Source of the DNA: a virus
Virus record (IMG/VR): IMGVR_UViG_3300031933_000202
Coordinates: 1 to 64,000 of that record
DNA: 64,000 bases
Direction: 5' to 3' (one strand)
The position numbers were made by a program, and so were the translations under genes. The notes under the pieces were generated by a model, which was not told where the DNA came from, did not search any database, and saw only the letters and a list, made by a program, of their open reading frames with translations. Within the stretch, counting starts at the first letter, position 1. Each line of letters begins with the position of its first letter. Below, piece by piece: positions 955 to 63,309 of this stretch.

Positions 955-989
955 CCTGTATTTACAGATTCCTGTATTGCGGTAATAAT
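955..989 (+). promoter_or_regulatory. CTGTATTTACAG palindrome with embedded promoter (copy 1)
   Basis: CCTGTATTTACAG at 955-967 is an exact copy of the repeated palindrome. The TTTACA inside it (961-966) is a fair -35 box, 16-17 bases upstream of TAATAAT (983-989), so a repressor bound to the palindrome would cover the promoter of the downstream excisionase-like operon. A second half-site, CCTGTATTG, follows at 971. Confidence 0.6.
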
Positions 990-1016
990 AGGACTAGTTA
1001 CGTCAAGGTGAGACAG

Positions 1017-1217
1017 ATGAAGACAGACTACGAACCAGTGAGAGTGGTGATGGATGCCTTGGACCGCATCCCTCTCACAGATGAGGACCGGCACATCCAA
1101 GCCAGTCTGGAGTTCGAACTCCCACACGCCCTCGGCTGCGGATCACCGCAGCTGCTGGCCATGAAAATTGCCCACGATCTCCGCAGACTCGAGATCATGC
1201 TCAGAGGTACTAAGTAA
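1017..1217 (+). CDS. Small hypothetical protein
   Basis: 66 residues. I chose the ATG at 1017 over a GTG nine bases earlier because AAGGTGAG lies seven bases before it. The sequence is helical and amphipathic (MKTDYEPVRVVMDALDRIPL). Its stop overlaps the next start (TAATG), so it is translationally coupled to the HTH gene that follows. It is the first gene after promoter copy 1. No family recognised. Confidence 0.6.
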   Translation: MKTDYEPVRVVMDALDRIPLTDEDRHIQASLEFELPHALGCGSPQLLAMKIAHDLRRLEIMLRGTK

Positions 1218-1420
1218 TGCAGCATCGAGAATTTGCCCAGAAGTTCGTGACCACATCGGAGTTGTGCGATCGCTACCGAGTCAGCTCCCGCACCCTGGTC
1301 CGCTGGAGGTCTGTGAAGGGATTTCCAGAGCCGGCCATGCACAACGTAGGCGCCGAAAACCTCTACTTGATGGAGGAAGTGGAGACCTGGGAAGAAGGCA
1401 AAATCAGGAAGAAGGCGTGA
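1217..1420 (+). CDS. AlpA/excisionase-like HTH protein
   Basis: A 67-residue protein whose core (TTSELCDRYRVSSRTLVRWRSVKGFPEPAM) matches the MerR/AlpA-type winged helix-turn-helix: helix, turn, recognition helix with TLVRWR, then a wing with FPEP. In phages such proteins act as recombination directionality factors or small regulators. The integrase gene lies within 2 kb on the opposite strand, which favours an excisionase role, but a transcriptional role cannot be excluded. Fold call confident, function inferred. Confidence 0.7.
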   Translation: MQHREFAQKFVTTSELCDRYRVSSRTLVRWRSVKGFPEPAMHNVGAENLYLMEEVETWEEGKIRKKA

Positions 1421-1458
1421 TATCTTCACGAGCAATAATGACTGAAGGAGCTACCGAT

Positions 1459-1818
1459 ATGGGCAAACATACACTCTACGAACTGGCTACTGATTTCGAA
1501 CTGTTCCAAGAGTTTGCAGATCCCAACAACACATGGGCTGAAGAACTATTCGACTCTACCCCTGTTTCCGAGAAGCTGCGCCATCTGATCTTCACCTTCG
1601 GAGTGGATGAAGAGGGTCGTAACGAACTGGCTGCCAACGTCCGGGATGGCACCTACGTCTGCGAAAACCCGACCTTGCAAGAATGCCGTCAAGATGGGAT
1701 CGAAGTGCTGACCGATATGGCGTTCTACGACGCCTTGGCAACCGCAACCGAAACTATCTACGGCAATGTTTCCGACAGCGTTGCCGCGCTTATCCGAGAA
1801 GACTACGGGATTTACTGA
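1459..1818 (+). CDS. Hypothetical acidic protein
   Basis: 119 residues, strongly acidic (DFELFQEFADPNNTWAEELF). The ATG at 1459 is chosen because GAAGGAG stands eight bases upstream; an in-frame ATG at 1438 lacks a site. No family recognised. The 3' end overlaps the 3' end of the convergent integrase gene by seven bases, so transcription from the two sides collides here. Confidence 0.6.
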   Translation: MGKHTLYELATDFELFQEFADPNNTWAEELFDSTPVSEKLRHLIFTFGVDEEGRNELAANVRDGTYVCENPTLQECRQDGIEVLTDMAFYDALATATETIYGNVSDSVAALIREDYGIY

Positions 1819-3041
1819 CGCTTCGGCGGCTCAGCCACGATCTCCATCAAGCGATCCCACCACTTCTTATAGGCGGTCGCTTGCTCATCCAGGTAGAGGT
1901 GACGGTCGTACACTCCTTGCATACCCTTTAGGGAGTGACCGAGCATCATTTCAGCGACAACCACGTCGGTTAGCGAAGAGAAATTGGTCCGCGCTGTCTT
2001 CCGCAGATCGTGCATAGACCAGTGCTTCATCTTCACGCCATAACTGCGCTCCGCTTCGTGCATCACCATCCCAGGAAGGCTGATGACAGTGCCATTAGCC
2101 ATTCTGACCGGCTTCAGGGCGCCGGTCATCAGAAGGCTCTTGGAGCGGGAGATACCCATCAATTCCTGCAGCATAGGGACCACTTCAGGGATTAAAGGCC
2201 TGACGTGATCCCTCTTCACCTTCTTCCTTACCTTGTTTTTCGCGACAGGTATGGTCCAGGTCATGGCCTCGAAGTCTAGATCCTCCAAAGGGTTCACATC
2301 TCTCAGCTCGCCGTTTCGGCAGCCGAAGAACAGACAGAGCCTTATAAAGAGTGTGTTACGCCTCAACGTCGGCGCCGTACCGGCGCAGTGCCAGACCAAC
2401 CTAATCTCTTCCTCGGCCAGCGCTCGGCCAGCGTCACCACTGTCCTCTATCTGCAGGTCGTCTCGAGTGTTCAGCAGCGCGAGAGGCTGGGAGTTGATAA
2501 GCCCCCGCTTGTACGCCCACAAGTGAACTTGCTTTGAGGTGTTCAGGATTCTCTCTGCTATAGAGGGGGCCTTCGCTTTGACCCCTCCCAGAACAGCCAT
2601 CCACTGCCCTCCTGTGGTCTCGTCTACGGGGAGGTCACCAAGCGTCGGGAAGACGTGGATCTCGAAGGAGCGGAGGTAGGCCTCTGCGTCCTGGTAATTG
2701 CCGAGGGAGTAGCCCTCGTGCCACATCATGTACAGGCTCCGGTTTGTTGGAACACCCGAAGCGTTCGATTTTTCAACCTTGCGTCGAACCCTCGGGTCAA
2801 CACCCTGCTCAAGCAGCGCCTTCAGCCGAAGGTGCTCGGTGCGGGCCTCCTTTAGAGACATTAAAGGGTAAGTACCTAGGTCGAGCCTGGCAGGCTTTCC
2901 AAGGAACCGGTACCTGTACTGAAAGACAATCCTTCCGCCGGCGGAAACTCGGATACCCAAACCCCCTGCGTCAGCTTTCTCGAGAGTGCTGTCGCGTGGC
3001 TTTTTATGGTTGGCTTTTAACCAAGAATCTGACAGTGCCAT
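1812..3041 (-). CDS. int: Tyrosine recombinase integrase
   Basis: 409 residues with the layout of P4/phi-type integrases: an N-terminal DUF4102 arm-binding domain (KADAGGLGIRVSAGGRIVFQ; LGTYPLMSLKEAR), a SAM-like core-binding domain, then the catalytic domain. Catalytic residues are visible as R in GCRNGELR, H-x-x-R in HDLRKTAR, and LGHSLKGMQGVYDRH, with the nucleophile tyrosine in VYDRH. It integrates the phage DNA into, and with a directionality factor excises it from, the host chromosome. I use the ATG at 3041 (GGGAAG upstream) rather than one 45 bases earlier. The attP core was not identified. Confidence 0.93.
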   Translation of the reverse strand: MALSDSWLKANHKKPRDSTLEKADAGGLGIRVSAGGRIVFQYRYRFLGKPARLDLGTYPLMSLKEARTEHLRLKALLEQGVDPRVRRKVEKSNASGVPTNRSLYMMWHEGYSLGNYQDAEAYLRSFEIHVFPTLGDLPVDETTGGQWMAVLGGVKAKAPSIAERILNTSKQVHLWAYKRGLINSQPLALLNTRDDLQIEDSGDAGRALAEEEIRLVWHCAGTAPTLRRNTLFIRLCLFFGCRNGELRDVNPLEDLDFEAMTWTIPVAKNKVRKKVKRDHVRPLIPEVVPMLQELMGISRSKSLLMTGALKPVRMANGTVISLPGMVMHEAERSYGVKMKHWSMHDLRKTARTNFSSLTDVVVAEMMLGHSLKGMQGVYDRHLYLDEQATAYKKWWDRLMEIVAEPPKRQ

Positions 3042-3438: not shown

Positions 3439-3450
3439 CCTGTATTTACA
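3439..3450 (+). promoter_or_regulatory. CTGTATTTACA palindrome (copy 2)
   Basis: CCTGTATTTACA, followed by a degenerate second site (CATGTATTACTGTAAT from 3461). Preceded by GTATAC, as is the related site at 4609. It lies some 70 bases upstream of the ArsR-type regulator, in the place expected for an autoregulatory operator. Confidence 0.5.
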
Positions 3451-3516
3451 TAAACACGGGCATGTATTACTGTAATCACAGCCAACAAATCCACAGAAAA
3501 ATAGAAGGTATTAAAA

Positions 3517-3783
3517 TTGTCGCCGTCTGCCGCACTTCTGAGTAGTCTGTCAAGCACTTTTCGCTTGGAACTCGTTTCTCTGATCACCCAGGAGGGGGGG
3601 TTGTGTGTAAACGAAATAGCAGAAAAAAGTGGGACCTCCCAAGCCACTGCATCTCGTCAGCTGATCATCCTGCGAAACGCAGGTGCAATTAAGGTCGAGA
3701 AGCAAAACAACAAGAGGATTTACAGCGTAGACGAACAGGTCGTTAAGCTGGTGGAGGCAGCGAGGAGGATTGCAGAGGGCTAG
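3517..3783 (+). CDS. ArsR-type winged-helix regulator
   Basis: 88 residues with a winged helix-turn-helix: FRLELVSLITQEGGLCVNEIAEKSGTSQATASRQLIILRNAGAI, where NEIAEKSGTSQATASRQLIIL is helix 2-turn-recognition helix, followed by a beta wing (IKVEKQNNKRIYSVD). There are no metal-binding ELxxC motifs, so it is a non-metal ArsR-like protein. The start is a TTG with AGAAGGT nine bases upstream; no in-frame ATG is available. A copy of the genome-wide palindrome lies in its promoter region, making it a candidate for the phage repressor that reads that palindrome; this link is inference. Confidence 0.75.
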   Translation: MSPSAALLSSLSSTFRLELVSLITQEGGLCVNEIAEKSGTSQATASRQLIILRNAGAIKVEKQNNKRIYSVDEQVVKLVEAARRIAEG

Positions 3784-3836
3784 TTCCCAGATTTGACAGC
3801 AGATGAGGTTGCTTGCAGGCTATCCGGAAAGAAAAA

Positions 3837-3885
3837 CGCCGACCCTAGGGCCGGCGTAAATAAGAAAACCACGTCTTATTTTATC
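3837..3885 (+). terminator. Two adjoining hairpins, probable terminator
   Basis: CGCCG-A-CCC / GGG-C-CGGCG (3837-3856) is followed at once by AAATAAG / CTTATTT (3858-3881) and a short T-rich run. This pair closes the regulator gene. The second hairpin is AT-rich and could act in either direction. Confidence 0.5.
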
Positions 3886-3915
3886 TCCGACCGGCACCAG
3901 TAAGCAAGGAACCTC

Positions 3916-4557
3916 ATGGAACTCTATATGGCAGCGGTCTCCCTTCCTAAACGGGGTCGCTATCTTCCTTTGCACAAACACCACCTCCAAACGCAGATGA
4001 CCTGGACAGCTCGTGACAGGGAAGACTACTTCGCGCTGCTCGAGACTGTAGAGACACTGTATAAAAAAGGCCCTGCCGGCCTGGGCATCCCGAGACCTCT
4101 GTTAGAAGCGCTGTGGGTTGAAGACCTGACGGTCACAGAGGCCACCAACAGGATTCTCCCCTACTTCTTGCAGTGCGACAGCCACAGGCATAACAAGGTG
4201 GCACCTCTGCATGCCAAAAGGGATCGCGTAGAAGTCCTCGGAATGGCAGGGCTGCCTCCGGACCAAAACGGACTGAGATTCGCTGTCATAGGCAAAGGTG
4301 TTGAGCGCCTTGCGCTCTTACCATGGGTTCTAGAAGCCGTGACTAAGGATACGCAGGAGGAGTTCACAGCGGACGACCTAGACACACTGGAAGGACGTTC
4401 AAACCCCTCTCTTGTCCGAATTATCTCACTGGCAGAAAAACCTGTGACGAGCCAAGGCTTTGCCAAGATAGTGGCTGTGCCCGCCGAGGCTATCGTCAAC
4501 CTGTCCCGTACACACAAAGGCGAGTTCATTCGAGAAGTACCCAGGGTATGGGCGTGA
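3916..4557 (+). CDS. Hypothetical protein of the control region
   Basis: 213 residues, no recognised domain. The start follows AAGGAACCTC. Residues 1-90 are basic and rich in His (LPLHKHHLQTQMTWTARDRE), and the C-terminal half is mixed alpha/beta. It stands alone between a terminator and a promoter, so it is its own transcription unit, lying where lysogeny-control genes are expected. Function unknown. Confidence 0.6.
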   Translation: MELYMAAVSLPKRGRYLPLHKHHLQTQMTWTARDREDYFALLETVETLYKKGPAGLGIPRPLLEALWVEDLTVTEATNRILPYFLQCDSHRHNKVAPLHAKRDRVEVLGMAGLPPDQNGLRFAVIGKGVERLALLPWVLEAVTKDTQEEFTADDLDTLEGRSNPSLVRIISLAEKPVTSQGFAKIVAVPAEAIVNLSRTHKGEFIREVPRVWA

Positions 4558-4608: not shown

Positions 4609-4643
4609 CCTGCATTGACAGGAATACAGTAAACCCCTAGGAT
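4609..4643 (+). promoter_or_regulatory. Sigma70 promoter overlapping degenerate palindrome (copy 3)
   Basis: TTGACA at 4615-4620, a 17-base spacer and TAGGAT at 4638-4643 make a good sigma70-type promoter. The -35 box is the middle of CCTGCATTGACAGG, a diverged copy of the genome-wide palindrome, and GTATAC precedes it as at copy 2. The promoter would drive the three-gene ribbon-helix-helix operon. Confidence 0.6.
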
Positions 4644-4682: not shown

Positions 4683-4898
4683 ATGGCACACGCTGAGGCG
4701 CAAAATCTGACCGTACGGGCAGCGGACCTTCTAAGCCGGCAGGAGAAGAAATTCACTTTGGACATGCCGGAGAGCCTGCACGCCAAGATCAAGGGCATCG
4801 CTGCTGCGCACCGCATGTCTGCAAAAGACGTAGTCCTCGAGGCACTTATGAACTACACCATCCCCAAGTACACAGGAAAAGAGGTATCTGATGAGTAG
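4683..4898 (+). CDS. Ribbon-helix-helix DNA-binding protein
   Basis: 71 residues. The C-terminal part (KKFTLDMPESLHAKIKGIAAAHRMSAKDVVLEALMNYTI) has the ribbon-helix-helix pattern: a short beta strand with alternating residues, then two helices separated by a turn, as in Arc, ParG and CopG proteins. It probably binds DNA as a dimer and may be the phage's second regulator. I use the ATG at 4683; a TTG at 4659 overlaps promoter elements. It overlaps the next gene by eight bases. Confidence 0.7.
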   Translation: MAHAEAQNLTVRAADLLSRQEKKFTLDMPESLHAKIKGIAAAHRMSAKDVVLEALMNYTIPKYTGKEVSDE

Positions 4899-5622: not shown

Positions 5623-5642
5623 AAACCTGTATTTACAGGTTT
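5623..5642 (+). promoter_or_regulatory. Perfect 20-bp palindrome (copy 4)
   Basis: AAACCTGTATTTACAGGTTT has perfect 9-base arms around TT, the longest symmetric copy with a TT centre. It ends 31 bases before the helicase start. TATACA (5656) is a possible -10, but that would leave almost no leader, so the site looks more like an operator or roadblock on transcription entering the replication genes. Confidence 0.6.
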
Positions 5643-7259: not shown

Positions 7260-7265
7260 CCGCCC

Positions 7266-12137: not shown

Positions 12138-12233
12138 TGCAAACCTGTGTTCCTGTATTGCTGTATTTCCAGCAAGCAGAGACACCAATGAAGCTGATAA
12201 CCGTAACCATCAAACCCTAAAAGGAACGCCCAA

Positions 12234-13134: not shown

Positions 13135-13150
13135 AACCTGTATTTACAGG
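13135..13150 (+). promoter_or_regulatory. CCTGTATTTACAGG palindrome (copy 5)
   Basis: AACCTGTATTTACAGG begins ten bases after the terminator T-run and ends 14 bases before the Acb2 start. There is no room for an ordinary promoter between the terminator and the site, so transcription of the downstream genes must read through the terminator or start within the site. Confidence 0.6.
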
Positions 13151-14254: not shown

Positions 14255-15271
14255 ATGTCACTTAGCCAGATCGAAACACCCACTGACTCCTATGTTGCCC
14301 GCTACCCGTGGGCAACAGAGATGGCCATCGAACAACAGTCGATCTTCTGGCCCGCTGAGGAACTCGGCGTAGAGCGAGATGAAAACGACTTCAGGACCCT
14401 GCTCAACGAAGCCGAACTGCACGGCGTACTCACTGCTCAGTCGATTCTGACCCAGTACGAACTCATGATCGGTGGTGACGAGCTGTGGGGTGGCAAAATT
14501 GCCAAGATGTTCCCTCGCCCAGAGATCCAGCGCATGTGCGCCTGCTTCGCCAACGTCGAGCTGGGCAGTCATGCTCCCTTCTATGACCTGGCCAACAAGG
14601 TGCTGGGCAAGGCCACTGACGAGTTCTACAGCCAGTGGAAGCTGGACCCCGTTTTGGCTGAGCGTATCGCTTTCGTGAACGAGTGCACCGCCAGCGAAGA
14701 CGCCCTTGAGGTCACAGCCGCTTTGGCGTTCCTTGAGGGCTCGGTACTCTTCAGCGCCTTCGGCTACTTCAAGGGCTTCAACGCTCGCGGCCACAACATG
14801 ATTTCTCACTTCGTCAGCGGCATTGACGGATCTGCGAAGGATGAGAATTTCCACTCGATGGCATCTGCCTACCTGTTCCGGCAGTGCAAGGCCGAGCGCA
14901 CCGCCGCCGGCAACCACAGCCCTGCGCAGGATGCTGCACTGCGCGAGAAGATCCTCTGGATGGCCAAGGTCGTCTGGGAGCATGAACAGCTGATCACTCG
15001 AAAGCTGTTCGAGATCCCGGGCAACCGCGTCGTTACCGAGGAAGAGCTACTCGCCTTCACGCAGGACCGCATCGACGTCGTCCTTAACAGGCTGGAAATG
15101 CCGCCGATGTTTGGCCACGAGAAAGGCGTGATCTCCGGCTGGTTCTATCAGCAGCTGTCCACCGTGAAGGTGCCGGACTTCTTCGCCAATACCCAGCTGC
15201 AGTACCGCAGGTCTTGGGCTAAGCACCGGCTAATTTTTCGCAAGGAGCTGGCTCATGCACCCGCTTCTTGA
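14255..15271 (+). CDS. nrdB: Class I ribonucleotide reductase small subunit
   Basis: 338 residues with an R2 ferritin-like fold: candidate iron ligands in NVELGSHAPFYDL (first Glu/His pair), LAFLEGSVLFSAFGYF (Glu) and DENFHSMA (Glu-x2-His). It would generate the radical used by NrdA. I use the ATG at 14255. The C-terminus (WAKHRLIFRKELAHAPAS) lacks the usual acidic/hydrophobic tail that docks onto NrdA, and its last 17 bases overlap a homing endonuclease gene, so the tail may have been replaced. Confidence 0.88.
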   Translation: MSLSQIETPTDSYVARYPWATEMAIEQQSIFWPAEELGVERDENDFRTLLNEAELHGVLTAQSILTQYELMIGGDELWGGKIAKMFPRPEIQRMCACFANVELGSHAPFYDLANKVLGKATDEFYSQWKLDPVLAERIAFVNECTASEDALEVTAALAFLEGSVLFSAFGYFKGFNARGHNMISHFVSGIDGSAKDENFHSMASAYLFRQCKAERTAAGNHSPAQDAALREKILWMAKVVWEHEQLITRKLFEIPGNRVVTEEELLAFTQDRIDVVLNRLEMPPMFGHEKGVISGWFYQQLSTVKVPDFFANTQLQYRRSWAKHRLIFRKELAHAPAS

Positions 15272-15767
15272 GGTAATTCGTGAGCGTTTTGAGTACGCCG
15301 ATGGTCAGGTACGGGTTCTAAAAGCAGGCCAGTGGAAAGGTAAAAAAGGCGCTCTGGCTGGCAATGTCCGACCTAAGGATGGGCGAATAATCATTCAGAT
15401 TAAAGGTGCCCGGCTTTTCGCACATCAAGTGGTCTGGCTCCTCTTTCATGATGACCTTCCCGAAACCACCTTAGATCATCGAGACCGAGACCCTACCAAC
15501 AATAGGATAGAGAACCTACGACCGGCCAGCCTCAGTGAGCAGCAGGGGAACAAAACACGGCAGGCAAACAACACCAGCGGTTTTCGTGGTGTAAGTCGTG
15601 CCCACAACCATATGACGAAGCCTTGGCTAGCCACCATCAATCAAGGAGGCAAAGCCAAACACCTAGGGTACTTCGTTTCAGCTGAAGAAGCTGCCAGAGC
15701 CTATGACGCAGCTGCGATAGCTCAATTTGGGGCGTATGCCTCTACTAATTTCGGAGGGGTTATCTGA
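15255..15767 (+). CDS. HNH/AP2 homing endonuclease
   Basis: 170 residues: an HNH_3 nuclease core (LDHRDRDPTNNRIENLRPAS, with the second H and N of the motif visible) followed by an AP2-type DNA-binding domain (SGFRGVSRAHNHMTKPWLAT, then HLGYFVSAEEAARAYDAAA). Such free-standing homing endonucleases spread by cutting phages that lack them. It lies exactly between nrdB and nrdA, overlapping nrdB by 17 bases and nrdA by one base, and so keeps the operon translatable. Confidence 0.92.
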   Translation: MHPLLEVIRERFEYADGQVRVLKAGQWKGKKGALAGNVRPKDGRIIIQIKGARLFAHQVVWLLFHDDLPETTLDHRDRDPTNNRIENLRPASLSEQQGNKTRQANNTSGFRGVSRAHNHMTKPWLATINQGGKAKHLGYFVSAEEAARAYDAAAIAQFGAYASTNFGGVI

Positions 15768-17494
15768 TGTCTTTCGATCCTACTGGCCTTGACGCCAACA
15801 CCCTGCAGAAATTCGAGCAGCTGAGCGTAGACCGCAAGCGGCTACAGGAGATGGGGCACCTGCCGAGCTGGTATACGACAGCTGGTTACCAGATGTTCAA
15901 GGACAAGTACCAGGTCCCTGGTGAAGACGCCGTACAAGGCCGTCACCGCCGTATCGCACAGACACTGGCCCGCCACATGAAGGGCCGTGAGGCTGAGTGG
16001 GAGGAAAACTTCTTCAACGAAATGTGGGACGGCGTCCTGTCACCGTCATCACCGGCACTGGCCAACACTGGCACTGACCGCGGCATGATGGTCGCCTGCT
16101 CAGGGCAGGTCGTCGGCGACAGCGTGAACGATTTCTACACAGCCCTGCGTGAGACAGCCCTGCTGTCCAAATGGGGTTTCGGTACCAGTGCTGACTTCAG
16201 TGGCATTCGCCCGCGTGGTACGCCGATCAGCAAAGGTGGCAAGGCCAGCGGCGCCGTCGAGGTCATCAACGACTTCTTCACAGCGGCCGGCAAGATCAGC
16301 CAGGGAGGCGCACGCCGTGGCTCCATCGGCGCCTACCTCGACATTGAGCACGCCGACTGGGACGAGGCATGTGACTCACTGGCCGCTGAACCCAATGGCA
16401 AGAACTACGGCTGGATCATCCGCGACTCGTTCGTTGAACGACTCATGGCGGGTGATGAAGACGCCAACCGCCGCTGGACAAAGGCGATCTACACCAAGCT
16501 GATCACAGGCAAGGGTTACGTCTTCTGCGTGGACAAGGCCAACCGTCACCGTCCGCAGATGTACAAGGACTGGGGCCTGGATATCAAGGCCACCAACCTG
16601 TGCTCGGAGATCATGCTGCACAGCTCCGATGACCTGACCTACAGCTGCATCCTGGCTTCCCTGAACCTGATCCACTGGGACCGCATCAAGAGCAGCAACT
16701 CGGTCTTCATCGCCACGGTGTTCCTGGACTGCTTGTGCCAGGAGTTCATCGAGAAATCTGAAGGTGTAACGGGTCTTGAGAAGGTGCGTGAGTTCACCAT
16801 CCGTGGGCGAGCCATTGGCCTGGGCATCATGGGCTTTCACACGATGCTGCAGCAGAAAGGCATCCCGTACATCGGCCTCGAGGCGCAGTTCCTGTCCACC
16901 GAGATCGCCAAGCATCTGCATGACGAATCCCTGCGGGCAAGCCAGTGGCTGGCACAGGAGTATGGCGAGCCTATGTGGTGTGAGGGGTACGGAGTTCGCA
17001 ACACACATCGTATCGCCTACGCCCCAACCAAGACGACAGCACTACTCATGGGTGGAGTTTCCGAGTCCTGGTTCCCTGACCCGGGCATGGTATTCGATGC
17101 CAGCTCAAGCGTAGGTGAACTTCGCCGCATTACACCTGTGATCTACGAGGTGATGAAGGCCAAGGGCGTCTACAGCAATGAGACGATCGAAGACCTGATT
17201 AACAAGCTGGGCAGCGTCCAGCACGTTGACTGGCTGACCGATGAAGAGAAGTTGGTGTTCCTCAACGCCTTCGAAATGGATCAGCGAATCCTGCTGCGCC
17301 ATGCCAGCCAACGTCAGCCGCACACCTGCCAGGGGCAGAGTCTGAACTTCTATGTGCCGGAAGACGGTTCAGAGGATCTGATCGCTGAACTGCTGACGCT
17401 CGTCCTGCTCGACCCTAACATCCTGTCCCAATACTACATCTACTCGAGAAGCGGGATTGTCGTGAAGGACGAGTGCATCGCCTGCTCAGCATAA
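15767..17494 (+). CDS. nrdA: Class I ribonucleotide reductase large subunit
   Basis: 575 residues, short for NrdA because the N-terminal ATP-cone is absent, so it should lack dATP feedback inhibition at that site. Catalytic features are present: ACSGQVVGDS (first redox Cys), NLCSEI (radical Cys with Asn and Glu), YSCILASLNL (second redox Cys) and the C-terminal CIAC shuttle pair. It reduces ribonucleotides to deoxyribonucleotides. The start overlaps the HNH gene stop by one base. Confidence 0.93.
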   Translation: MSFDPTGLDANTLQKFEQLSVDRKRLQEMGHLPSWYTTAGYQMFKDKYQVPGEDAVQGRHRRIAQTLARHMKGREAEWEENFFNEMWDGVLSPSSPALANTGTDRGMMVACSGQVVGDSVNDFYTALRETALLSKWGFGTSADFSGIRPRGTPISKGGKASGAVEVINDFFTAAGKISQGGARRGSIGAYLDIEHADWDEACDSLAAEPNGKNYGWIIRDSFVERLMAGDEDANRRWTKAIYTKLITGKGYVFCVDKANRHRPQMYKDWGLDIKATNLCSEIMLHSSDDLTYSCILASLNLIHWDRIKSSNSVFIATVFLDCLCQEFIEKSEGVTGLEKVREFTIRGRAIGLGIMGFHTMLQQKGIPYIGLEAQFLSTEIAKHLHDESLRASQWLAQEYGEPMWCEGYGVRNTHRIAYAPTKTTALLMGGVSESWFPDPGMVFDASSSVGELRRITPVIYEVMKAKGVYSNETIEDLINKLGSVQHVDWLTDEEKLVFLNAFEMDQRILLRHASQRQPHTCQGQSLNFYVPEDGSEDLIAELLTLVLLDPNILSQYYIYSRSGIVVKDECIACSA

Positions 17495-17513
17495 ATAACA
17501 ACTAAAGTATAGC

Positions 17514-17547
17514 TGTAAATACAGGGCCGTAAGGCCCTGTATTTACA
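17514..17547 (+). promoter_or_regulatory. Two palindromes fused into a 15-bp-stem hairpin (copies 6a/6b)
   Basis: TGTAAATACAGGGCC (17514-17528) is followed by GTAA and then its perfect reverse complement GGCCCTGTATTTACA (17533-17547). Two copies of the genome-wide palindrome in opposite orientation have become one long hairpin, 16 bases before the polymerase gene. Without a T-run it is not a classic terminator. Confidence 0.75.
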
Positions 17548-17563
17548 TCAGAGGAGAACCACC

Positions 17564-22704: not shown

Positions 22705-22722
22705 TTGCTGTAAATACAGCAA
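22705..22722 (+). promoter_or_regulatory. Perfect palindrome with AA centre (copy 7)
   Basis: TTGCTGTAAATACAGCAA has perfect 8-base arms. Compared with copy 4 the pair flanking CTGTA/TACAG is G-C instead of C-G and the outer bases also differ, but pairing is kept. It begins eight bases after the resolvase stop and lies 32 bases upstream of the ligase. Confidence 0.6.
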
Positions 22723-46897: not shown

Positions 46898-47281
46898 TCA
46901 CCTACGGGGTAAGGGCTTTTTACGTGGTCGTGAGGCATTCGCCGCTTCTGCGCGCTCCCTGGACTTCGAGTAGTGGTCAAAGAGGACTCCGTTGTCGGTC
47001 TCCTCCATGGTCTTGAAGTACAGAGACCGCAAGTCCTGATCCACTTGTAAAACGTGGTCAGCGAAGTGGGCCATCTCCTGGTACTGCAGGGGCTGGAATC
47101 CGTTCTCCGTGTGCTGCCGCCTCCTGTGCAGGCGAAAGAAAGAATCCACGAGCCACCTCATTGCGGGTGGCGGCTCCTTGAAGTCCTCGAGGGCTGGGTG
47201 TTTGCGCCCAAATTTTTCCTCGAGGTCTTTCATGGCCTTCAGCCCTTTCGCGCCATGCGTGATCAGGAAGCGGCAGAATCC
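46898..47281 (-). CDS. Tail assembly chaperone, frameshift extension (gpT-like)
   Basis: This frame has no good start of its own; an ATG at 47233 has no clear binding site. It is open from before the gpG-like stop and lies in the -1 frame relative to it, as lambda T does to G. Ribosomes slipping at GGTAAAG (47281-47287) would add 127 residues (containing MKDLEEKFGRKHPALEDF) to the first 135 of the upstream protein. The G-T fusion chaperones tape measure assembly. Confidence 0.7.
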   Translation of the reverse strand, partial: GFCRFLITHGAKGLKAMKDLEEKFGRKHPALEDFKEPPPAMRWLVDSFFRLHRRRQHTENGFQPLQYQEMAHFADHVLQVDQDLRSLYFKTMEETDNGVLFDHYSKSRERAEAANASRPRKKPLPRR

Positions 47282-47685
47282 TTTACCGATTCAGCTACTT
47301 CTTCCTCGGCGCGCTCACGGAAGTTCGCCCGGTTCATAGAGAAGTTTTCGATGAACTGGTTGAGGTCGCGGAAGCGCGGGTTGATTAGGTACTCGTAGCC
47401 GACCTCGGCGGAGTACGGCAGCGGCTCACCACCCTTGCTGACGCCTTCCCACTCAATAAGCACGGCCTCGGACAAAACCCGAGCAGCAATGTCGTTGGCG
47501 ATGGCGTCAGAGTTCTCGTCTCCTGCGGTCAGCGCGTCCCACTTATCCAGCGTCAGCTTGGAACGGAGGAAGTTCACCCGGTCGCTGTTGTACCGGGCGA
47601 TCTTGAACTTGGCGCCCATGAAGGTTGCCCACACACCCTCTTCTGCGGCGGTGGGGTCAACGGCAAGGCTTTCGATGTCGAGCAT
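47263..47685 (-). CDS. Tail assembly chaperone (gpG-like)
   Basis: 140 residues, placed between the tail tube and tape measure genes like lambda gpG. It begins MLDIESLAVDPTAAEEGVWA. I prefer the ATG at 47685; an ATG at 47724 lies inside a hairpin. It coats the tape measure protein before the tube forms. Confidence 0.72.
   Translation of the reverse strand: MLDIESLAVDPTAAEEGVWATFMGAKFKIARYNSDRVNFLRSKLTLDKWDALTAGDENSDAIANDIAARVLSEAVLIEWEGVSKGGEPLPYSAEVGYEYLINPRFRDLNQFIENFSMNRANFRERAEEEVAESVKDSAAS
47281..47287 (-). other. Candidate -1 ribosomal frameshift site
   Basis: GGTAAAG on the minus strand, in register as GTA-AAG. Slipping back one base turns AAG into AAA, which the same lysine tRNA reads. 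It differs from the lambda G-T heptamer GGGAAAG at one base. It lies six codons before the gpG-like stop and within the open region of the downstream frame. Confidence 0.6.
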
Positions 47686-47711: not shown

Positions 47712-47746
47712 ATATGGGCGTCATCCTAGAGGAATGACGCCCATAT
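47712..47746 (-). promoter_or_regulatory. 13-bp hairpin after the tail tube gene
   Basis: ATATGGGCGTCAT (47712-47724) and ATGACGCCCATAT (47734-47746) pair perfectly around a nine-base loop. No T-run follows in the direction of transcription, so it may stabilise the abundant tail-tube mRNA by blocking 3' exonucleases, or partly stop transcription, lowering the chaperone and tape measure message. Confidence 0.6.
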
Positions 47747-47768
47747 TTACAGCTTTATGTATTTACGG
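47741..47768 (-). promoter_or_regulatory. Two imperfect palindromes (copies 10a/10b)
   Basis: CCATATTTACAG (47741-47752) and ATGTATTTACGG (47757-47768) on the plus strand. The first overlaps the 13-bp hairpin. Both carry the TT centre on the plus strand although the genes run the other way. Confidence 0.5.
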
Positions 47769-51616: not shown

Positions 51617-52801
51617 TCACGCCTTCTCGAGGCTGACGACCGACCATGCCTCGTCGTGCAGACGGGTCGACATCTCGCCGTAGTCCACGCGGAAGCCGGT
51701 GGCTTTGCGCATCACGTACTCTTCAATCGCGTCGTAGGAAGCCGACACGTTGACGAAGCGTTGGATGGCGTAGCGAGGGTCCAGGCCAACCATTACGCCG
51801 GCACCGAACACGTCGGCAGCGAACGGGGTGATCTTCGGCTGGGTGATACCCAGGTTCAGGCCGCCCCAAGGGGTGGAGATTTTCGAGGAGTCGACGCCGG
51901 TGGTGGATGGCAGCAGTGCTTCGTCGACAGTCAGCGCGGTGTCGATGTCGGTCAGTACCTGGCTGAGGTTGCAGATGTTCTGCTTGCTGTGCAGCCACTT
52001 GATAAACGCACGCTTGGTGATCTTGCCGTCCACAGTGATCGCGCCGTCAAAGGTGCCGATCTTGGTCACCGGCAGAGCAGTGATGCCCAGGTCGACATCA
52101 CCTTGCACCATCGAGCGGATCTGCTCGTTGACGCGGCGGATGCGGTCACCACGGGACTGTGCTTCCATCACGACACGAACCAGGTCGATGGTGGTGGACG
52201 CCATGGCTTCGTCGGAGATCATCAGACCAACGCTGTTGGTCGGGATACGGTACGACTTGTCGCCGGTGGTGATGGAGATCATCGTCTCCGGCTCAGCCAA
52301 CTGAGCGATACGACCGCTACGGCTACCTTCCGGCGCAGTGGTGTCGATGATCGGCTGGTCGGCCTTGGTGCCGTTGACGCTGCGGCTGACAGCGACCAGG
52401 GATTCCCAGATGCTCAGAATGTCGCTGCCGTCGTCACGCAGGGCGTTGGCCTGCATGGTTTCCAGAATCAGCTGCGGGTACAGCAGGCGAGCGCCAAGGC
52501 TGTTGTCGCTGCCGTCCGGGCGGCGGAAGCCGTCAGCCAGCTTGGAACCTGCGATGTCCTGCAGGGTCATCGAAGGCATGCCGAACTTCTGGCCGTCCAT
52601 CAGGCCGGAGTTGGCGTACATCTGGTCAAGCGGCTCGCCCATGCTGCGGTCCCAGTCGGGCGCCAGGTGCTTGGCGTACTGGCGCAGGGTCATGCCCTTC
52701 TGCGCAGCGTGCTTGTAGGCCTCAACGGTGACGTCAACGGACTTCAGGACTTTACTGCCCTTCTCGTCCTTGGCCCAGTATTCCAGCTTGAATGGTTTCA
52801 T
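51617..52801 (-). CDS. Major capsid protein
   Basis: 394 residues, the size of HK97-fold capsid proteins, in the right place after protease/scaffold and a small capsid-associated protein. A long N-terminal helical arm is followed by a mixed fold with PQLILETMQANALRDDGSDI and YRIPTNSVGLMISDEAM. I use the second ATG at 52801 (AGGAA six bases upstream); the first lies six bases earlier. No separate E-loop lysine is identified. Confidence 0.85.
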   Translation of the reverse strand: MKPFKLEYWAKDEKGSKVLKSVDVTVEAYKHAAQKGMTLRQYAKHLAPDWDRSMGEPLDQMYANSGLMDGQKFGMPSMTLQDIAGSKLADGFRRPDGSDNSLGARLLYPQLILETMQANALRDDGSDILSIWESLVAVSRSVNGTKADQPIIDTTAPEGSRSGRIAQLAEPETMISITTGDKSYRIPTNSVGLMISDEAMASTTIDLVRVVMEAQSRGDRIRRVNEQIRSMVQGDVDLGITALPVTKIGTFDGAITVDGKITKRAFIKWLHSKQNICNLSQVLTDIDTALTVDEALLPSTTGVDSSKISTPWGGLNLGITQPKITPFAADVFGAGVMVGLDPRYAIQRFVNVSASYDAIEEYVMRKATGFRVDYGEMSTRLHDEAWSVVSLEKA

Positions 52802-52830: not shown

Positions 52831-52850
52831 GGACCTGTAATTACAGGTCC
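52831..52850 (-). promoter_or_regulatory. Fully symmetric palindrome (copy 11)
   Basis: GGACCTGTAATTACAGGTCC is a perfect 20-base palindrome with no central asymmetry, and TTCCTGTATTTCTGG nearby (52808) is a decayed second copy. It stands between the capsid decoration gene and the major capsid gene, 29 bases before the chosen start. Confidence 0.65.
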
Positions 52851-54804: not shown

Positions 54805-56268
54805 TCACTGGTCATCTCCGCCTGATTTGCTCGGAGTGCCTGGGTTCAGCGCACGCCCGGTCGAGCTTTCGCGCTCGCCTTCTTCACCACCCGAGGCAGT
54901 CTTCTTGGTGTAGAAACCGGTACCTGCGAAGATATCTGTCAGGCCTTGCGGGCGTATCCCAAGCTCGTAGCAAGCCTGTGCGTCGTTGATAAGGCCGTAG
55001 CTAAGTAGCTCCAGGACCCTCTTTTGTTTGGTGCCTTTGTAGGCTTCCAGCTCCTCTTCCGGGCGGAGGTTGACTGGCATGAATTCGAAGTAAACGTGGC
55101 CTTCTACGCCCATGAGCCGAACGGCCAGAGTCAGGGCGCGGCTCATTACCTCTTCTACCGGCGGGCGAGCTGCCTCGACGACTTTGAGGTAGATCAGAGT
55201 CTCCGCGTTGGAGAGACCTTGGCCACCACTGGCACGCAGGCCGCTTACGCTTGCCGGGGTCTTGAGCGATGCGCCCAGCAGGTTGCCCAGCGTGGTTAGC
55301 ATCGGCGAGTAGTCGGATTTGCTGCCACCTGTGTCCTTCACGTCGTAATTGACAGAGTCATAGGCGACCAGGGCGTCTTCCGGCTCGAGGCCTTCAAGGG
55401 CTTGCTCAACCTGCTCTCGGACAGTGTTGAAGTAGGTGTTCCGCTTGGCTGGATCGGACTTGATATCTTCCGGCGCGGTAGACAGAACCTTATCGCTGTC
55501 CAGTTTGGCCAGTAACCGGCTGTGTCCAGTGCGGTTGACGGCCCGGTGCGTGTCTTCCAAAAACTCATTGAAGTTCACGGTGTGGGACAGGCCCGGGCGA
55601 AGCAGGCTCACCGCGTAGGCTTCGTCAGCATTACGGTTGTGCTCAGCGACGAACGCTGTGGGGATGTTCAGGTCGATATCGCCGTTATCCTGCGTAGGAT
55701 AACGACCGCCCTTCCCATCAGCTTCCCACTGAATAGTGGAGTAGCCGACCGGAACCAGCCGTTCTGGGCCGAAGGTTTTGTCCAGGACCAGCTCAACTCC
55801 GCAGCCTCCAGTACCGATAACGTCGGTCTGCAGGGTGGTCAGCAGGGACTGCAGGCCCGGCTTATCGTTGAAGCCCTGACTGTAGTCGTGGAGCGTACTG
55901 AGGCGGTCAATTAGCGAGTAGGCAACCGCAGTCACCCCCGTGTCCATGGCACCTTCAGCCGTGTAACCCGCAATACGGAATCCACTGTTGGCAGCCAGTG
56001 CCACCATGCTGTTCGCCGCTGAAGAGAACAGTCCATCTTCACGCATCAGCGTGCGGATGATCTCGTTGATATCCGTGCGGTTTCGGACATCCTTAATGGC
56101 GGTAGCTACGTAGCGGTTCAGCGTGTTGCTGATCGCCTGGCCACGGTCAAAATCTGATCCTGGGCGCTTAGCGCGAGCCTTACCAGCCAGGTTACGTTTT
56201 GGCAGCACGACGCTCGCACCCTGGGTATTGGTGCGGGGAGAACGTGACGCTGCTTTGCGTATTGCCAT
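54805..56268 (-). CDS. Portal protein
   Basis: 487 residues, in the portal position between terminase and protease. NTLNRYVATAIKDVRNRTDI near the start and GNLLGASLKTPASVSGLRAS / GLSNAETLIYLKVVEAARPP in the middle fit HK97/lambda-type portals, which form the dodecameric DNA channel. The ATG has no Shine-Dalgarno sequence; a palindrome copy ends three bases before it. The C-terminus is a disordered Gly/Ser tail. Confidence 0.83.
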   Translation of the reverse strand: MAIRKAASRSPRTNTQGASVVLPKRNLAGKARAKRPGSDFDRGQAISNTLNRYVATAIKDVRNRTDINEIIRTLMREDGLFSSAANSMVALAANSGFRIAGYTAEGAMDTGVTAVAYSLIDRLSTLHDYSQGFNDKPGLQSLLTTLQTDVIGTGGCGVELVLDKTFGPERLVPVGYSTIQWEADGKGGRYPTQDNGDIDLNIPTAFVAEHNRNADEAYAVSLLRPGLSHTVNFNEFLEDTHRAVNRTGHSRLLAKLDSDKVLSTAPEDIKSDPAKRNTYFNTVREQVEQALEGLEPEDALVAYDSVNYDVKDTGGSKSDYSPMLTTLGNLLGASLKTPASVSGLRASGGQGLSNAETLIYLKVVEAARPPVEEVMSRALTLAVRLMGVEGHVYFEFMPVNLRPEEELEAYKGTKQKRVLELLSYGLINDAQACYELGIRPQGLTDIFAGTGFYTKKTASGGEEGERESSTGRALNPGTPSKSGGDDQ

Positions 56269-56271: not shown

Positions 56272-56283
56272 CTGTATTTACAG
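56272..56283 (-). promoter_or_regulatory. CTGTATTTACAG palindrome at the portal start (copy 12)
   Basis: An exact copy lies three bases upstream of the portal ATG, followed (56284-56293) by another TTTACAGG. On the mRNA it would take the place of the ribosome binding site, so protein or RNA structure here could directly control portal translation. Confidence 0.6.
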
Positions 56284-56411
56284 GTTTACAGGTTTGACTA
56301 CGATTATTGGACACTCCGTAGTTAGAAGCAACTGGTTATTCTTTGACCAGACTTGATAACGATAGGGCATATCGCTAGGCTGCTGTGATTACAGGAAGTA
56401 GGGAGTTTGCA

Positions 56412-58437: not shown

Positions 58438-58734
58438 TCAGATTAGCTTGCAGTTTGCGCGATTGTCACAGGTAGTCGATTGACACAGTGTTCTGGCAGC
58501 TTTGGCCAAGCTGCTTGGACCCTTGGGGTGTTTCACAGAGTCCACCCGAACAGGTATCTCCACCTTGAAAGCCCACTCCAGGGCCGTGATGAACCCCAGG
58601 ACCTGGTTAACCAGATAATTGGCGACCCAGTTCTTGAAGCCCTCTCCCGCCGGACACTTGCTTACGTCAGTGGTCCAAGTTCCCTCAGCCGAAACACGAA
58701 TCGGCACTAAGCCGAACAACAGGTATCTCTCCAT
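58438..58734 (-). CDS. Small hypothetical protein before terL
   Basis: 98 residues with four cysteines (SKCPAGEGFKNW; LCQSTTCDNRANCKLI). No family recognised. It ends ten bases before terL and is the first gene after the promoter overlapped by the LexA-type box, so it shares control with the terminase. It could be a small packaging accessory protein. Confidence 0.55.
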   Translation of the reverse strand: MERYLLFGLVPIRVSAEGTWTTDVSKCPAGEGFKNWVANYLVNQVLGFITALEWAFKVEIPVRVDSVKHPKGPSSLAKAARTLCQSTTCDNRANCKLI

Positions 58735-58946: not shown

Positions 58947-58960
58947 GCTGTAAATACGGC
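58947..58960 (-). promoter_or_regulatory. Imperfect palindrome (copy 13)
   Basis: GCTGTAAATACGGC differs from the standard form at one base and has the AA centre on the plus strand. It lies 50 bases after the stop of the putative small terminase gene and before the LexA-type promoter. Confidence 0.45.
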
Positions 58961-59694: not shown

Positions 59695-59976
59695 TCAGGC
59701 TTCGACGCGGATCTGGTCCGGGTTGGCGCTGTAGGTCAGCACGGTGCGGGCCGGAACTTCTACTTCGGTTGCGACGACGCCGCCCTTGATGGTGCGCGCT
59801 GCGTACTGGCGAGCACGGAACTTTCCGAAGCCACGCAGGGTGAGGTGGCCGCGATCGAATGCCAGCTCACTGATGCCAGCCAGGACGGATTCCACAGCGG
59901 TCTTGGCAGCCACTTTGGAGATGTCGGCGTGGGTGGCGACGAAGTTGATCAGGTCCTGCTTGGAGGCGTTACTCAT
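59695..59976 (-). CDS. HU/IHF-family DNA-binding protein
   Basis: 93 residues with the HU fold: SKQDLINFVATHADISKVAA and LTLRGFGKFRARQYAART, the latter being the conserved GFGxF beta-arm base. It bends DNA and, being first in the late operon next to terminase, may help packaging, as IHF does at lambda cos, or late transcription. Confidence 0.92.
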   Translation of the reverse strand: MSNASKQDLINFVATHADISKVAAKTAVESVLAGISELAFDRGHLTLRGFGKFRARQYAARTIKGGVVATEVEVPARTVLTYSANPDQIRVEA

Positions 59977-60075
59977 TTTGGGTGGCCTTTTAAGTTCTTG
60001 AGGTGGTTCTTGTGGGGTTATGCGTTGGGTCTAGGAGACTTGCGAGAGTTCCCGCAGGTGGGCAAACCCATATTG

Positions 60076-60122
60076 CTGTACTTACAGGTTTACAGAGTAT
60101 ATCGGGTGGAGGTGGGTGTAAA
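60076..60122 (-). promoter_or_regulatory. Candidate late promoter with downstream palindrome (copy 14)
   Basis: On the minus strand TTTACA (60117-60122) and TATACT (60096-60101), 15 bases apart, could be the promoter for the HU-led late operon. CTGTACTTACAG (60076-60087), a palindrome copy with a CT centre, lies just downstream of the -10, in the same relation as at the 12.1 kb promoter. Confidence 0.4.
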
Positions 60123-60236
60123 GGGGTGTCGGTTTGGTGGTCGTTGAGGATGGGTGTAGAGGGTGAGGCTTTCGGTGGGGGTGATGAGGTCGTGGGCGGG
60201 CTGGGGGTGGCGGGCGGTGGGGGATGTCGGGGTGTA
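60104..60236 (+). other. Strongly G-rich tract with G-quadruplex motif
   Basis: About 130 bases with many GGG runs and only about a dozen C on the plus strand. The core at 60194-60223 has five G-runs of at least three separated by 1-4 bases, which satisfies the usual G-quadruplex pattern. It lies upstream of the late operon. A minus-strand reading frame through it (60090-60350) is low-complexity Pro/His/Thr and not accepted as a gene. Confidence 0.7.
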
Positions 60237-60358
60237 TAACGATATAAGCCAGGTTTGGTTTTTCGTAAATTTTTGGGCGCGGAGGTAGGGGTGCAGGTGG
60301 TGTCCTCTATGTATAAAAAGAGGGTCCGGGGCTGTCTGAAATTTTCGCAAATTGACGC

Positions 60359-60387
60359 TTGACTCTATGTTTCTATTCCCGCATAGT
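60359..60387 (+). promoter_or_regulatory. Candidate promoter for the structured region
   Basis: TTGACT (60359-60364), a 17-base spacer and CATAGT (60382-60387). It would start a plus-strand transcript near 60394, at the head of the hairpin-rich region. Divergent from the late operon. Confidence 0.45.
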
Positions 60388-60393
60388 TCGTCC

Positions 60394-61045
60394 CAAGCAA
60401 CGCAAACAACGGTTGCCTAGCCAAGCCCTACGGGGTGAGGCGCAAGGCTCCAGCCTTGCCCGTTCTTTAAACCCGCTAGTGTGTCGCTCAACCGAGCGGC
60501 CTGTATTGAGTCACAACGGCAGAAGCTTTGCCGTTGCGGATAACCTTGCCAGTGGTCTGACTGCTGGCCAGCGCTACCTAACCCCGTCTATATGTCTGGC
60601 AATGGCTGGCAAGGCGACGGGCAACGGAAGCAAGGCGCAAAAGGGGAAACGCCAGACGGTCTAGGCCTCGGGAGACAAAGAAATCAGCTTTTCAGCCTAT
60701 GGGTATGAAGGGCGGAGCTTTGCCTAACGATCGGAGTGATCGGCACGCACTGCATTGGGCATCCTGTATTTACAGTTTTTCTGCTTTACAGCTTGCCGGA
60801 TCATTAAAAACTTATCGCTTTGCCAGACTATCCGCGCCCTAGTTGCGCCCATTGTTTGCCGCTATCTGCTATCCGTTGCCATTGCCTTCGATAGCGCACA
60901 AGAAAGCCGGCAGACGCTACAACTAACGGCCTTATAGCGGCAAAGCATGGAAACGGAAACGAGGCAGGCGGTAGCGTCTGCCTCGACTAGCTAAACCATC
61001 CCAGCGGCTTATACAAAGGGCATTCCACTAGATTGCCCTTTGCCG
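60394..61045 (+). ncRNA. Candidate large structured non-coding RNA
   Basis: About 650 bases without a credible gene but with many perfect short hairpins in one strand sense: CAAGGCT/AGCCTTG (60443-60458), CGCTC-AACC-GAGCG (60485-60498), CAACGGCA/TGCCGTTG (60514-60536), GCCAG/CTGGC (60548-60568), CCCGTC/GACGGG (60583-60621), GGCG/CGCC (60634-60653), GAGGCAG/CTGCCTC (60961-60984), AAGGGCA/TGCCCTT (61016-61041). TTGCC/GGCAA recurs about 14 times. It ends shortly before a gene, so it may be a stand-alone RNA, a long leader, or an origin. Confidence 0.4.
60764..60775 (+). promoter_or_regulatory. CTGTATTTACAG palindrome followed by T-run (copy 15)
   Basis: An exact copy within the structured region, followed by TTTTT, so as RNA it would be a minimal hairpin-plus-U-tract and might end an RNA of about 380 bases begun at 60394. 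A half-site (CTTTACAG) follows at 60785. Confidence 0.55.
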
Positions 61046-61091
61046 TAACCCACTAAAGAAAATCAGAACCTAAACGAAAGGGAACCCCACT

Positions 61092-61841: not shown

Positions 61842-61862
61842 ATTTCGCGCGCGCGTGCGTAT

Positions 61863-61885: not shown

Positions 61886-61893
61886 ATGCCCGC

Positions 61894-61986: not shown

Positions 61987-62040
61987 AAAACGGTTCGCCA
62001 ACCACATGACGTAACCAATCCCACAAAGGAAACCCACACC

Positions 62041-62475: not shown

Positions 62476-62729
62476 TGGGCCGTCAGGTGAGTGCGAGTCT
62501 CGATGATCTGGCGCTGGCAGGGTGCCTCGTACAGATCGCCTTTTTCGTCGAGGACGACGAAGGCACCGCGGTGGTCGTTCGCAGGGCCCCCGTGGACTTC
62601 CCTGATGGCAGCCGCCTCACCAGCGATGTGGGCGACTTCCTCGTCTTCGACTGCCGCAACCGGCAGAGCGCGAACTTCTGGGCGCTTGAGCAGCTCATCG
62701 ACCTCGGTGTGCCCTTCACTTGGTCGTGA
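62475..62729 (+). CDS. Small hypothetical protein
   Basis: 84 residues, beta-rich and acidic (VQIAFFVEDDEGTAVVVRRA). Coupled to the preceding gene by TAATG. The gene after the triple repeat (62837) has a similar opening pattern (HLVEDDSVLPIAFVAFTV), so the two may be distant duplicates. Confidence 0.6.
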   Translation: MGRQVSASLDDLALAGCLVQIAFFVEDDEGTAVVVRRAPVDFPDGSRLTSDVGDFLVFDCRNRQSANFWALEQLIDLGVPFTWS

Positions 62730-62749
62730 AGGTCATCCCGTTCGCCACG

Positions 62750-62814
62750 AGTAAAGGTGGCTACAAGTAAAGGTGGCCATGCGTTTCCATAGTGTCGCCA
62801 CGAGTAAAGGTGGC
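62750..62814 (+). repeat. AGTAAAGGTGGC repeated three times
   Basis: Exact copies at 62750-62761, 62766-62777 and 62803-62814; the first and third share the longer CGCCACGAGTAAAGGTGGC. Each contains AAAGGTGG, a Shine-Dalgarno-like core. They fill the gap before the next gene. Confidence 0.85.
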
Positions 62815-62836
62815 CATCGGCAAAGGGGATTCCATC

Positions 62837-63130
62837 GTGTTCAACTTCCAAGTTTTCAGCAGCAGCGTACCGGGGAAGACCCGCGCCCACCTCGTCGAGG
62901 ACGACAGCGTCCTCCCCATCGCCTTCGTCGCGTTCACTGTCAGCGATGAGCCGGGGCCACTCAACGTATTCACCCGCGTCAGCGCCGAGCTGTACACCGG
63001 GGAAGGCTTCTACCCGGCTCGTCACAGCGCGTCCATGACCTGGCCCTGTGATACACCCATTCTTACTGACGAAGTGCCTGTGAGGCCCGTTCTGGGCTTC
63101 ATGGGCGAGGGCGTAAAGGAGGTCGCATGA
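62837..63130 (+). CDS. Small hypothetical protein
   Basis: 97 residues. I prefer the GTG at 62837, with AAAGGGG eight bases upstream, over in-frame GTGs at 62792 and 62810 that fall in the triple repeat. The sequence is beta-rich (NFQVFSSSVPGKTRAHLVED). Its stop overlaps the next start (ATGA). No family recognised. Confidence 0.55.
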   Translation: MFNFQVFSSSVPGKTRAHLVEDDSVLPIAFVAFTVSDEPGPLNVFTRVSAELYTGEGFYPARHSASMTWPCDTPILTDEVPVRPVLGFMGEGVKEVA

Positions 63131-63309
63131 GCATCACGCAGCAACTCGCCCATTGGCTGATCGCCATGGGCCTTGAACCGGCTATGGCCGCCCTCCTCGC
63201 CCTCCTGTCGCTTCCGGTTGGATTCCTCCTGGTCGGAACAGGTGTGGCAGGTCTCCTGGAAATCCGTGATCGTCGTAAGCGTGGACCTGTATTTACAGGT
63301 TTACGTTAA
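63127..63309 (+). CDS. 60-residue membrane protein
   Basis: A central hydrophobic helix (AALLALLSLPVGFLLVGTGVAGLL) flanked by a short amphipathic head and a basic tail (EIRDRRKRG). The last codons (Gly-Pro-Val-Phe-Thr-Gly-Leu-Arg) are encoded by a palindrome copy. ATGA overlap with the previous gene. Function unknown. Confidence 0.6.
   Translation: MSITQQLAHWLIAMGLEPAMAALLALLSLPVGFLLVGTGVAGLLEIRDRRKRGPVFTGLR
63285..63300 (+). promoter_or_regulatory. ACCTGTATTTACAGGT palindrome (copy 16)
   Basis: An exact copy with 7-base arms, the only one clearly inside a coding end. Its TTTACA (63292-63297) lies 16 bases before TAGTAA (63314), a weak promoter for the Bro gene that begins 45 bases downstream. 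Confidence 0.6.

Follow-up and report, generated by a model that had tools for sequence, protein, structure and literature searches.

Dispersed intergenic palindromes as probable operators of an immunity system in a clade of temperate Pseudomonas siphophages

Abundance and placement of the palindrome

The window analysed here, positions 1-64000 of the IMG/VR record IMGVR_UViG_3300031933_000202 (69,819 bases), carries a 12-bp palindrome, CTGTATTTACAG, that is repeated in the gaps between genes. The gene content of the record is of the siphophage type, with terminase, portal, head, tape measure, DNA polymerase, helicase, primase, ligase and ribonucleotide reductase genes, and no tRNA or Rfam features were found in the window. 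The nearest named relatives are the Pseudomonas phages UAntarctica, Lana and PMBT3, below called the sisters, with 66-68% amino acid identity in the portal and 60-62% in the DNA polymerase. Some IMG/VR contigs are nearer than the named phages (portal identity 79-84%), and these closer relatives are designated G001-G011.

The initial annotation held that the palindrome is far more frequent than expected by chance, which the counts bear out. With up to two mismatches, CTGTATTTACAG gives 36 strand-wise matches in the window against 2.2 expected, a number reached by none of 100 dinucleotide shuffles. With at most one mismatch, CTGTAWWTACAG has 18 sites in the record, where third-order Markov sequences give 0.33. 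No other words of the genome are nearly as over-represented as the 12-mer and its parts. Five relatives, picked by means of a 19-mer, have 7-11 exact copies each, while the reversed pattern, which served as control for the site counts, is found neither in these relatives nor in the record.

All eight exact copies described at the outset are real (956, 5627, 13138, 17513, 22708, 56272, 60764 and 63287), the positions first assigned to them being right or a few bases low. The same is true of the copies with one or two changes, at 3440, 4610, 12161 (first placed at 12143), 17537, 31157, 31174, 41251 (first placed at 41239), 47741, 47757, 52835, 58948 and 60076. A ninth copy, the one at 52835, has the CTGTAATTACAG form. 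Copies at 3470 and 56383 had been missed, as had one past the window, at record position 67570.

The sites avoid genes and are spread over the replication block, the head and tail block and the lysogeny block, in agreement with the earlier description of a genome-wide and almost wholly intergenic element. Based on the calls of a simple gene caller, run anew to obtain gene starts, 17 of the 18 sites with at most one mismatch are intergenic, intergenic DNA being 10.7% of the record. The single genic exception, at 63287, overlaps the final codons of a 60-amino acid open reading frame directly before the Bro-N gene. Nearly all sites are intergenic in G003, G008 and G001 as well, and no convergent gap contains a site. 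The two-mismatch matches inside the DNA polymerase gene (20594) and the tape-measure gene (42932) look like chance occurrences.

Site anatomy and downstream genes

When 53 distinct sites were oriented with the downstream gene (CTGTA at 0, TACAG at 7), 10 of them had a further CTGTA at exactly 8 bases upstream and 15 had a further TACAG at exactly 8 bases downstream (+15), with a background below one per position. The C and G outside the TGTAnnTACA core are fixed at 98% and 85%. The centre is ATTT rather than AAAT in a ratio of 30:13 in the sense orientation, part of which is accounted for by the use of TTTACA as a -35 element.

Two classes of site can be separated. In about one quarter of the distinct sites, the promoter class, a -35 element lies inside the palindrome: nine of 11 TT-centre sites located 42-70 nt from the start codon have a -10-like hexamer exactly 17 bp past the internal TTTACA or TTGACA, compared with none of the 26 sites nearer than 42 nt, and no other offset stands out. 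Read from the sequence, these are sigma-70 promoters with the palindrome over the -35, predicted for the xis operon (956), the tail operon (41251) and the relatives' ArsR-like and ribbon-helix-helix (RHH) genes; direct reading gives the same -35/-10 arrangement at 3440 and 4610 in the window. Sites of the second class lie nearer to the start codon, often within operon gaps of 12-79 bp, and have no good promoter or one just upstream, as at the portal gene where AATAAT precedes the site by 25 bp in three genomes.

The leftmost site, CTGTATTTACAG at 956-967 (+ strand), is a putative operator over the -35 (TTTACA, 961-966) of the predicted xis-operon promoter, with a -10-like AATAAT at 984-989; its orthologues lie 52 nt (G003) and 46 nt (G008) from the start. 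Before the ArsR-like gene, CTGTATTTACAT at 3440-3451 (+) includes TTTACA (3445-3450), the -35 of a TTTACA-17-TACTGT arrangement that recurs at G003 82658 and G008 33281, and CTGTAATCACAG at 3470-3481 (+) overlaps the -10 of this promoter (TACTGT, 3468-3473). Before the RHH gene, CTGCATTGACAG at 4610-4621 (+) includes the -35 (TTGACA, 4615-4620) of TTGACA-17-TAGGAT, whose -10 is at 4638-4643, and the pair recurs at G003 81511 and G008 34406. The CTGTATTTACAT site at 41251-41262 (- strand) lies over the -35 of the predicted promoter of the minor tail gene 40493-41197, the -10 being TACCTT at 41234-41229.

In the next stretch, with all sites on the + strand, CTGTATTTACAG at 5627-5638 is located upstream of the Dda-like helicase gene (5674), at a distance from the start of 35 nt in the window and 27, 28 and 27 nt in three relatives. 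The site CTGTATTTCCAG at 12161-12172, with a half-site CTGTATTG 8 bp upstream, precedes the gene at 12234, and CTGTATTTACAG at 13138-13149 stands only 15 nt before the gene at 13165, where a promoter would not fit downstream. Before the DNA polymerase gene (17564), CTGTAAATACAG at 17513-17524 pairs with CTGTATTTACAT at 17537-17548 in a perfect 15-bp inverted repeat (17514-17528/17533-17547), which has a GTAA loop and ends 16 nt from the start codon. Another CTGTAAATACAG site, at 22708-22719, lies 35 nt before the DNA ligase gene (22755). The ribonucleotide reductase genes (14255-17494) are 76% identical in DNA to those of other Pseudomonas phages, PaMx11 and Ab18, are absent from the sisters and from G003, and are read as a mobile module.

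Two copies of CCATATTTACAG on the - strand, the first with two mismatches at 31157-31168 and the second 17 bp away at 31174-31185, precede the gene 30775-31116 (-); one site is kept here at 56 nt in three relatives. Two further - strand sites, the first with two mismatches at 47741-47752 and the second, also with two mismatches and 16 bp from it, at 47757-47768, precede the tail assembly chaperone gene 47263-47685. The CTGTAATTACAG site at 52835-52846, not assigned to a strand, is found before the major head protein gene (51617-52801, -), at 33 nt in the window and 36, 33 and 36 nt in relatives. The gap between terminase and portal has CTGTATTTACAG at 56272-56283 (-), 63 nt before the portal gene (54805-56208, -), and CTGTGATTACAG at 56383-56394, again without strand. 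A leaderless or in-leader position of the site before the portal gene was considered and dropped, since a better start codon lies 20 codons downstream.

Further to the right, CCGTATTTACAG at 58948-58959 (-) is 213 nt before the gene 58438-58734 (-), and CTGTACTTACAG at 60076-60087 (-) is upstream of a gene for a small DNA-binding protein (59695-59976, -). The CTGTATTTACAG copy at 60764-60775 (+) lies in a non-coding stretch of 1.1 kb before the gene at 61092, at a distance that is 272-284 nt in three relatives, and the copy at 63287-63298 (+) ends 47 nt before the gene for the antirepressor-like Bro-N protein (63346). The stretch 59977-61091, about 1.1 kb without genes, has divergent flanks and two sites inside; the counterpart gap is of similar length in relatives, at 0.97-1.1 kb, and measures 0.84-0.91 kb in the sisters, and it is perhaps an origin or packaging region. 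Three repeats resembling GCCACGAGTAAAGGTGGC (AGTAAAGGTGGC) are found in the intergenic DNA at 62742-62826.

Conservation and the lysogeny cassette

A scan of related phages found the site kept at the same gaps within the clade. Nine to ten relatives carry the palindrome at the same gene gaps and at a near-equal distance to the start codon; besides the helicase and head genes, the distance is kept for the minor tail gene (53, 51, 49 and 49 nt in the window and three relatives), the tail chaperone (55-71 nt) and the portal (63 and 63 nt). In site-anchored alignments the 12 bases are 93% identical as against 50% for 30 flanking bases, a contrast that is overstated because the search itself selected for the site. 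The three sisters (81-88 kb each) have no site with at most one mismatch, and none in the orthologous gaps. Several of these gaps are shorter in the sisters than in the clade, namely 8-38 versus 62-73 bp at the minor tail gene and 32-41 versus 61-64 bp at the head gene. In a scan of other phages for the motif ACCTGTATTTACAGG, the matches listed outside the clade were mostly in AT-rich contigs or tandem arrays. The 12-mer was not discussed in any paper of the literature searched.

To the left of the replication block lies a lysogeny cassette. It comprises an Xis-like excisionase gene (1217-1420, +; HTH_17, NF033499 with E 1e-10, phrog_1553), a tyrosine integrase gene (1812-3041, -; PF13356, PF00589, phrog_1), a gene for an ArsR/SmtB-type winged-helix regulator of 88 amino acids (3517-3783, +; NF033788, PF01022), a gene for a conserved 213-amino acid protein without family match (3916-4557, +) and a gene for an Arc-like RHH protein of 71 amino acids (4683-4898, +; phrog_582). 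The ArsR-like and RHH proteins are the candidate repressors. A structure model of the 213-amino acid protein was poor (predicted local distance difference test score, pLDDT, 45) and was not used. Between the ArsR-like gene and this one, at 3784-3915, there is a hairpin with a T-run on the - strand, present in G003 too, placed as if a leftward transcript ended there, though no leftward gene was called.

The cassette genes have relatives in G003 and G008, and the ArsR-like gene also in G011. The sisters lack the integrase, excisionase, ArsR-like, 213-amino acid and RHH genes, and PMBT3 is described as virulent, without integrase or repressor (PMC8421299). That the site-free, virulent sisters are without integration and regulator genes makes the palindromes look like docking sites of a repressor; the missing sites follow if the sisters never had, or lost, such a protein.

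The site-bearing clade is temperate, as judged from the integrase and Xis in the cassette and from an apparently integrated copy in lepA. The record of G003 starts in an apparent mucD 3' end, next to which is a truncated lepA start, and its other end has lepA codons past a shared core, GTGCGCGATGATGGAGAA; the names mucD and lepA are a reading of the translations. The order mucD-lepA is presumably that of Pseudomonas. On that reading G003 would be a prophage integrated in a Pseudomonas-like host and would provide lepA with a new 5' end; G008 has the intact phage side. The integration in the lepA 5' end beside mucD, with a replacement lepA start and the core GTGCGCGATGATGGAGAA, is seen at the end of L046 (G003 78008-82940), at the start of L044 and at G008 33080. 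The core is not present in the window, so the attachment site of the window phage differs. Provirus trimming may explain why the records of G002, G004 and G005 stop at the integrase gene and why those of G005 and G010 start at the RHH gene. No relative of the clade turned up when reference bacterial genomes were scanned with the portal and head proteins.

Operators, candidate regulators and alternatives

The palindromes are probably dispersed operators of an immunity system in this clade of temperate Pseudomonas siphophages. About 20 sites would be occupied in a lysogen by a small DNA-binding protein that the phage encodes. In the promoter class (xis operon, both regulator genes and tail operon) it would cover the sigma-70 -35 and block initiation and, with the -35 covered at both regulator genes, the repressor would regulate its own synthesis. 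Sites of the second class, in short gaps before replication, head, tail and moron genes, are just downstream of weak promoters or without a recognisable promoter and would probably block transcribing polymerase in the manner of stoperators. The Bro-N protein (from 63346) and a KilA-N protein (record 66818-67555) are both antirepressor-like and may be inducers of the switch; one site directly precedes 63346 and another directly follows 67555.

The idea of one repressor acting at many intergenic sites, put forward in the initial annotation by comparison with mycobacteriophage L5, holds in that the sites avoid genes, relatives share the gaps, the clade is temperate and the virulent sisters have neither sites nor cassette. 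The likeness to L5 itself stays an analogy, and the promoter class would consist of promoter operators rather than stoperators.

Both regulators first named as candidates remain so, as they are kept wherever clade records cover the locus and are absent from the sisters. The ArsR-like protein matches PF01022 with 31.9 bits (cut-off 22) and NF033788 with 60.7 (cut-off 55). In its alignment the ELCVCDL-type metal site is replaced by GLCVNE or GLCVND, with no CxC, and the promoter of its gene has the densest cluster of half-sites. The RHH protein matches the Arc-like phrog_582 with E 1e-6 and a Pfam family below the cut-off. Its structure model has two helices and its top fold matches are RHH proteins (CopG, CdbA, AmrZ, Arc), with E above 1, and six relatives share the strand KKFT[LM]DMP without change. 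RHH proteins such as MetJ typically bind as dimers placed side by side at 8-bp steps. The 8-bp spacing does not exclude the ArsR-like protein, since the winged-helix protein HutC uses TGTA-N2-TACA and extra half-sites. From these sequence features the phage RHH protein is, tentatively, the first choice as binder, a slight and unproven preference over the phage ArsR-type protein, which is a possible second; another phage protein is unlikely and a host protein decidedly so. A fuller proposal can be offered only with reserve: either the RHH or the metal-site-less ArsR protein could be the sole immunity repressor, binding about 20 operators as 8-bp-spaced oligomers and blocking initiation and elongation, a stoperator-like system independent of that of the actinobacterial phages.

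A host reader of the sites would most readily be HutC, a regulator of the GntR family, which would tie the prophage to histidine and urocanate metabolism. The ten core letters TGTAnnTACA are those of the published HutC consensus, and HutC binds as oligomers of up to four, with three half-sites in the footprinted hutF site (PMC12977541); the mucD-lepA order also points to a Pseudomonas host. The HutC operator differs in its outer bases, the gel-shift-tested sites being mostly CTTG.. where the phage sites have the nearly fixed C and G, and it belongs to a host locus under metabolic control. In addition, the sisters, which have Pseudomonas hosts too, are without both the sites and the phage regulator cassette. 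Control by HutC is improbable.

It is similarly improbable that the sites serve as activator or promoter elements for turning on phage genes during lytic growth. The palindrome does supply the -35 hexamer of a good promoter in one class, and sites precede genes of every block, but most are less than 42 nt from the start codon and have no suitably placed -10, and some fill gaps of 25-35 bp inside operons. A dimer on the palindrome would itself cover the -35 and most sites have no promoter to activate, for which reasons repression is favoured; in the lytic sisters these genes are transcribed although no such site is present.

RNA hairpins in 5' leaders, with a role in translation control, termination or processing, are very improbable and were already disfavoured: many sites do lie 8-40 nt before start codons and a few form part of long hairpins (17514-17547; G003 31245), but one class is over the -35 and so outside the transcript, there is no Rfam match, and covariation does not exceed that of shuffles, though single examples looked compensatory. 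Pairing of the outer flanks is likewise no better than in shuffled flanks, which makes the pattern one of DNA binding rather than of RNA folding. A role in DNA maintenance (segregation, compaction or packaging) through a genome-coating RHH protein, suggested by the genome-wide spread and by the fold matches of the RHH model to CopG, CdbA, AmrZ and Arc, is hardly credible, as placement tracks gene starts and -35 elements rather than a regular spacing and a phage that integrates does not need partition.

Several points weigh against operators of an immunity system. Virulent T1-like phages (T1, Stevie, TLS) carry comparable intergenic repeats, about 16-20 near-identical copies, without lysogeny (PMC4319613, PMC11447400); theirs are 22 bp and asymmetric. 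The elongation block of L5 needs an asymmetric, oriented site (PMC9283540), while the sites here are palindromic. Many gaps carry no site, and the presence in the clade and absence in the sisters may be one evolutionary event. Neither regulator has relatives outside the clade among the GenBank phages and IMG/VR records searched, so that correlation cannot name the binder as RHH or ArsR.

Dispersed operators of a single repressor are known from phiC31, where the sites are conserved inverted repeats, and from the C1 operators of P1; sequences, repressor families and hosts are different from those of the present clade. In the L5 Rep system, with the stoperators of cluster A mycobacteriophages, 20-30 short and nearly identical sites are spread through the genome of a temperate phage, mainly in narrow intergenic regions and some in promoters, and the repressor is believed to keep the prophage silent (PMC9283540, PMC6550527). 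Scattered, near-identical, mostly intergenic sites in a temperate phage are found here as well. The L5 sites are asymmetric 13-mers in one orientation, bound by a monomer of a two-domain helix-turn-helix protein (PMC9283540, PMC6550527), in contrast to a 12-bp palindrome with half-sites at 8 bp and cassette DNA-binding proteins that match the ArsR, Arc-like and Xis families, the first two being the candidate regulators. The SPBRE element of the Bacillus phage SPbeta was also a repeated intergenic element found in silico, later shown to bind the prophage master repressor MrpR; it differs in being a 15-bp motif in ten promoter regions, with a binder of tyrosine-recombinase fold and a Gram-positive host (PMC10516654).

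The best-known cases of gene-by-gene silencing of a prophage by dispersed repressor sites are those of actinobacterial phages, P1 and SPbeta. If the interpretation as operators is true, the clade would represent an independent solution in a Gram-negative Pseudomonas setting, combining a compact palindromic operator that includes the -35 with candidate regulators of very small size. It would also be a simple setting in which to ask whether RNA polymerase can be halted by a small symmetric roadblock. The temperate, site-bearing phages and their virulent, site-free sisters constitute a natural experiment on the gain or loss of operator arrays together with lysogeny.

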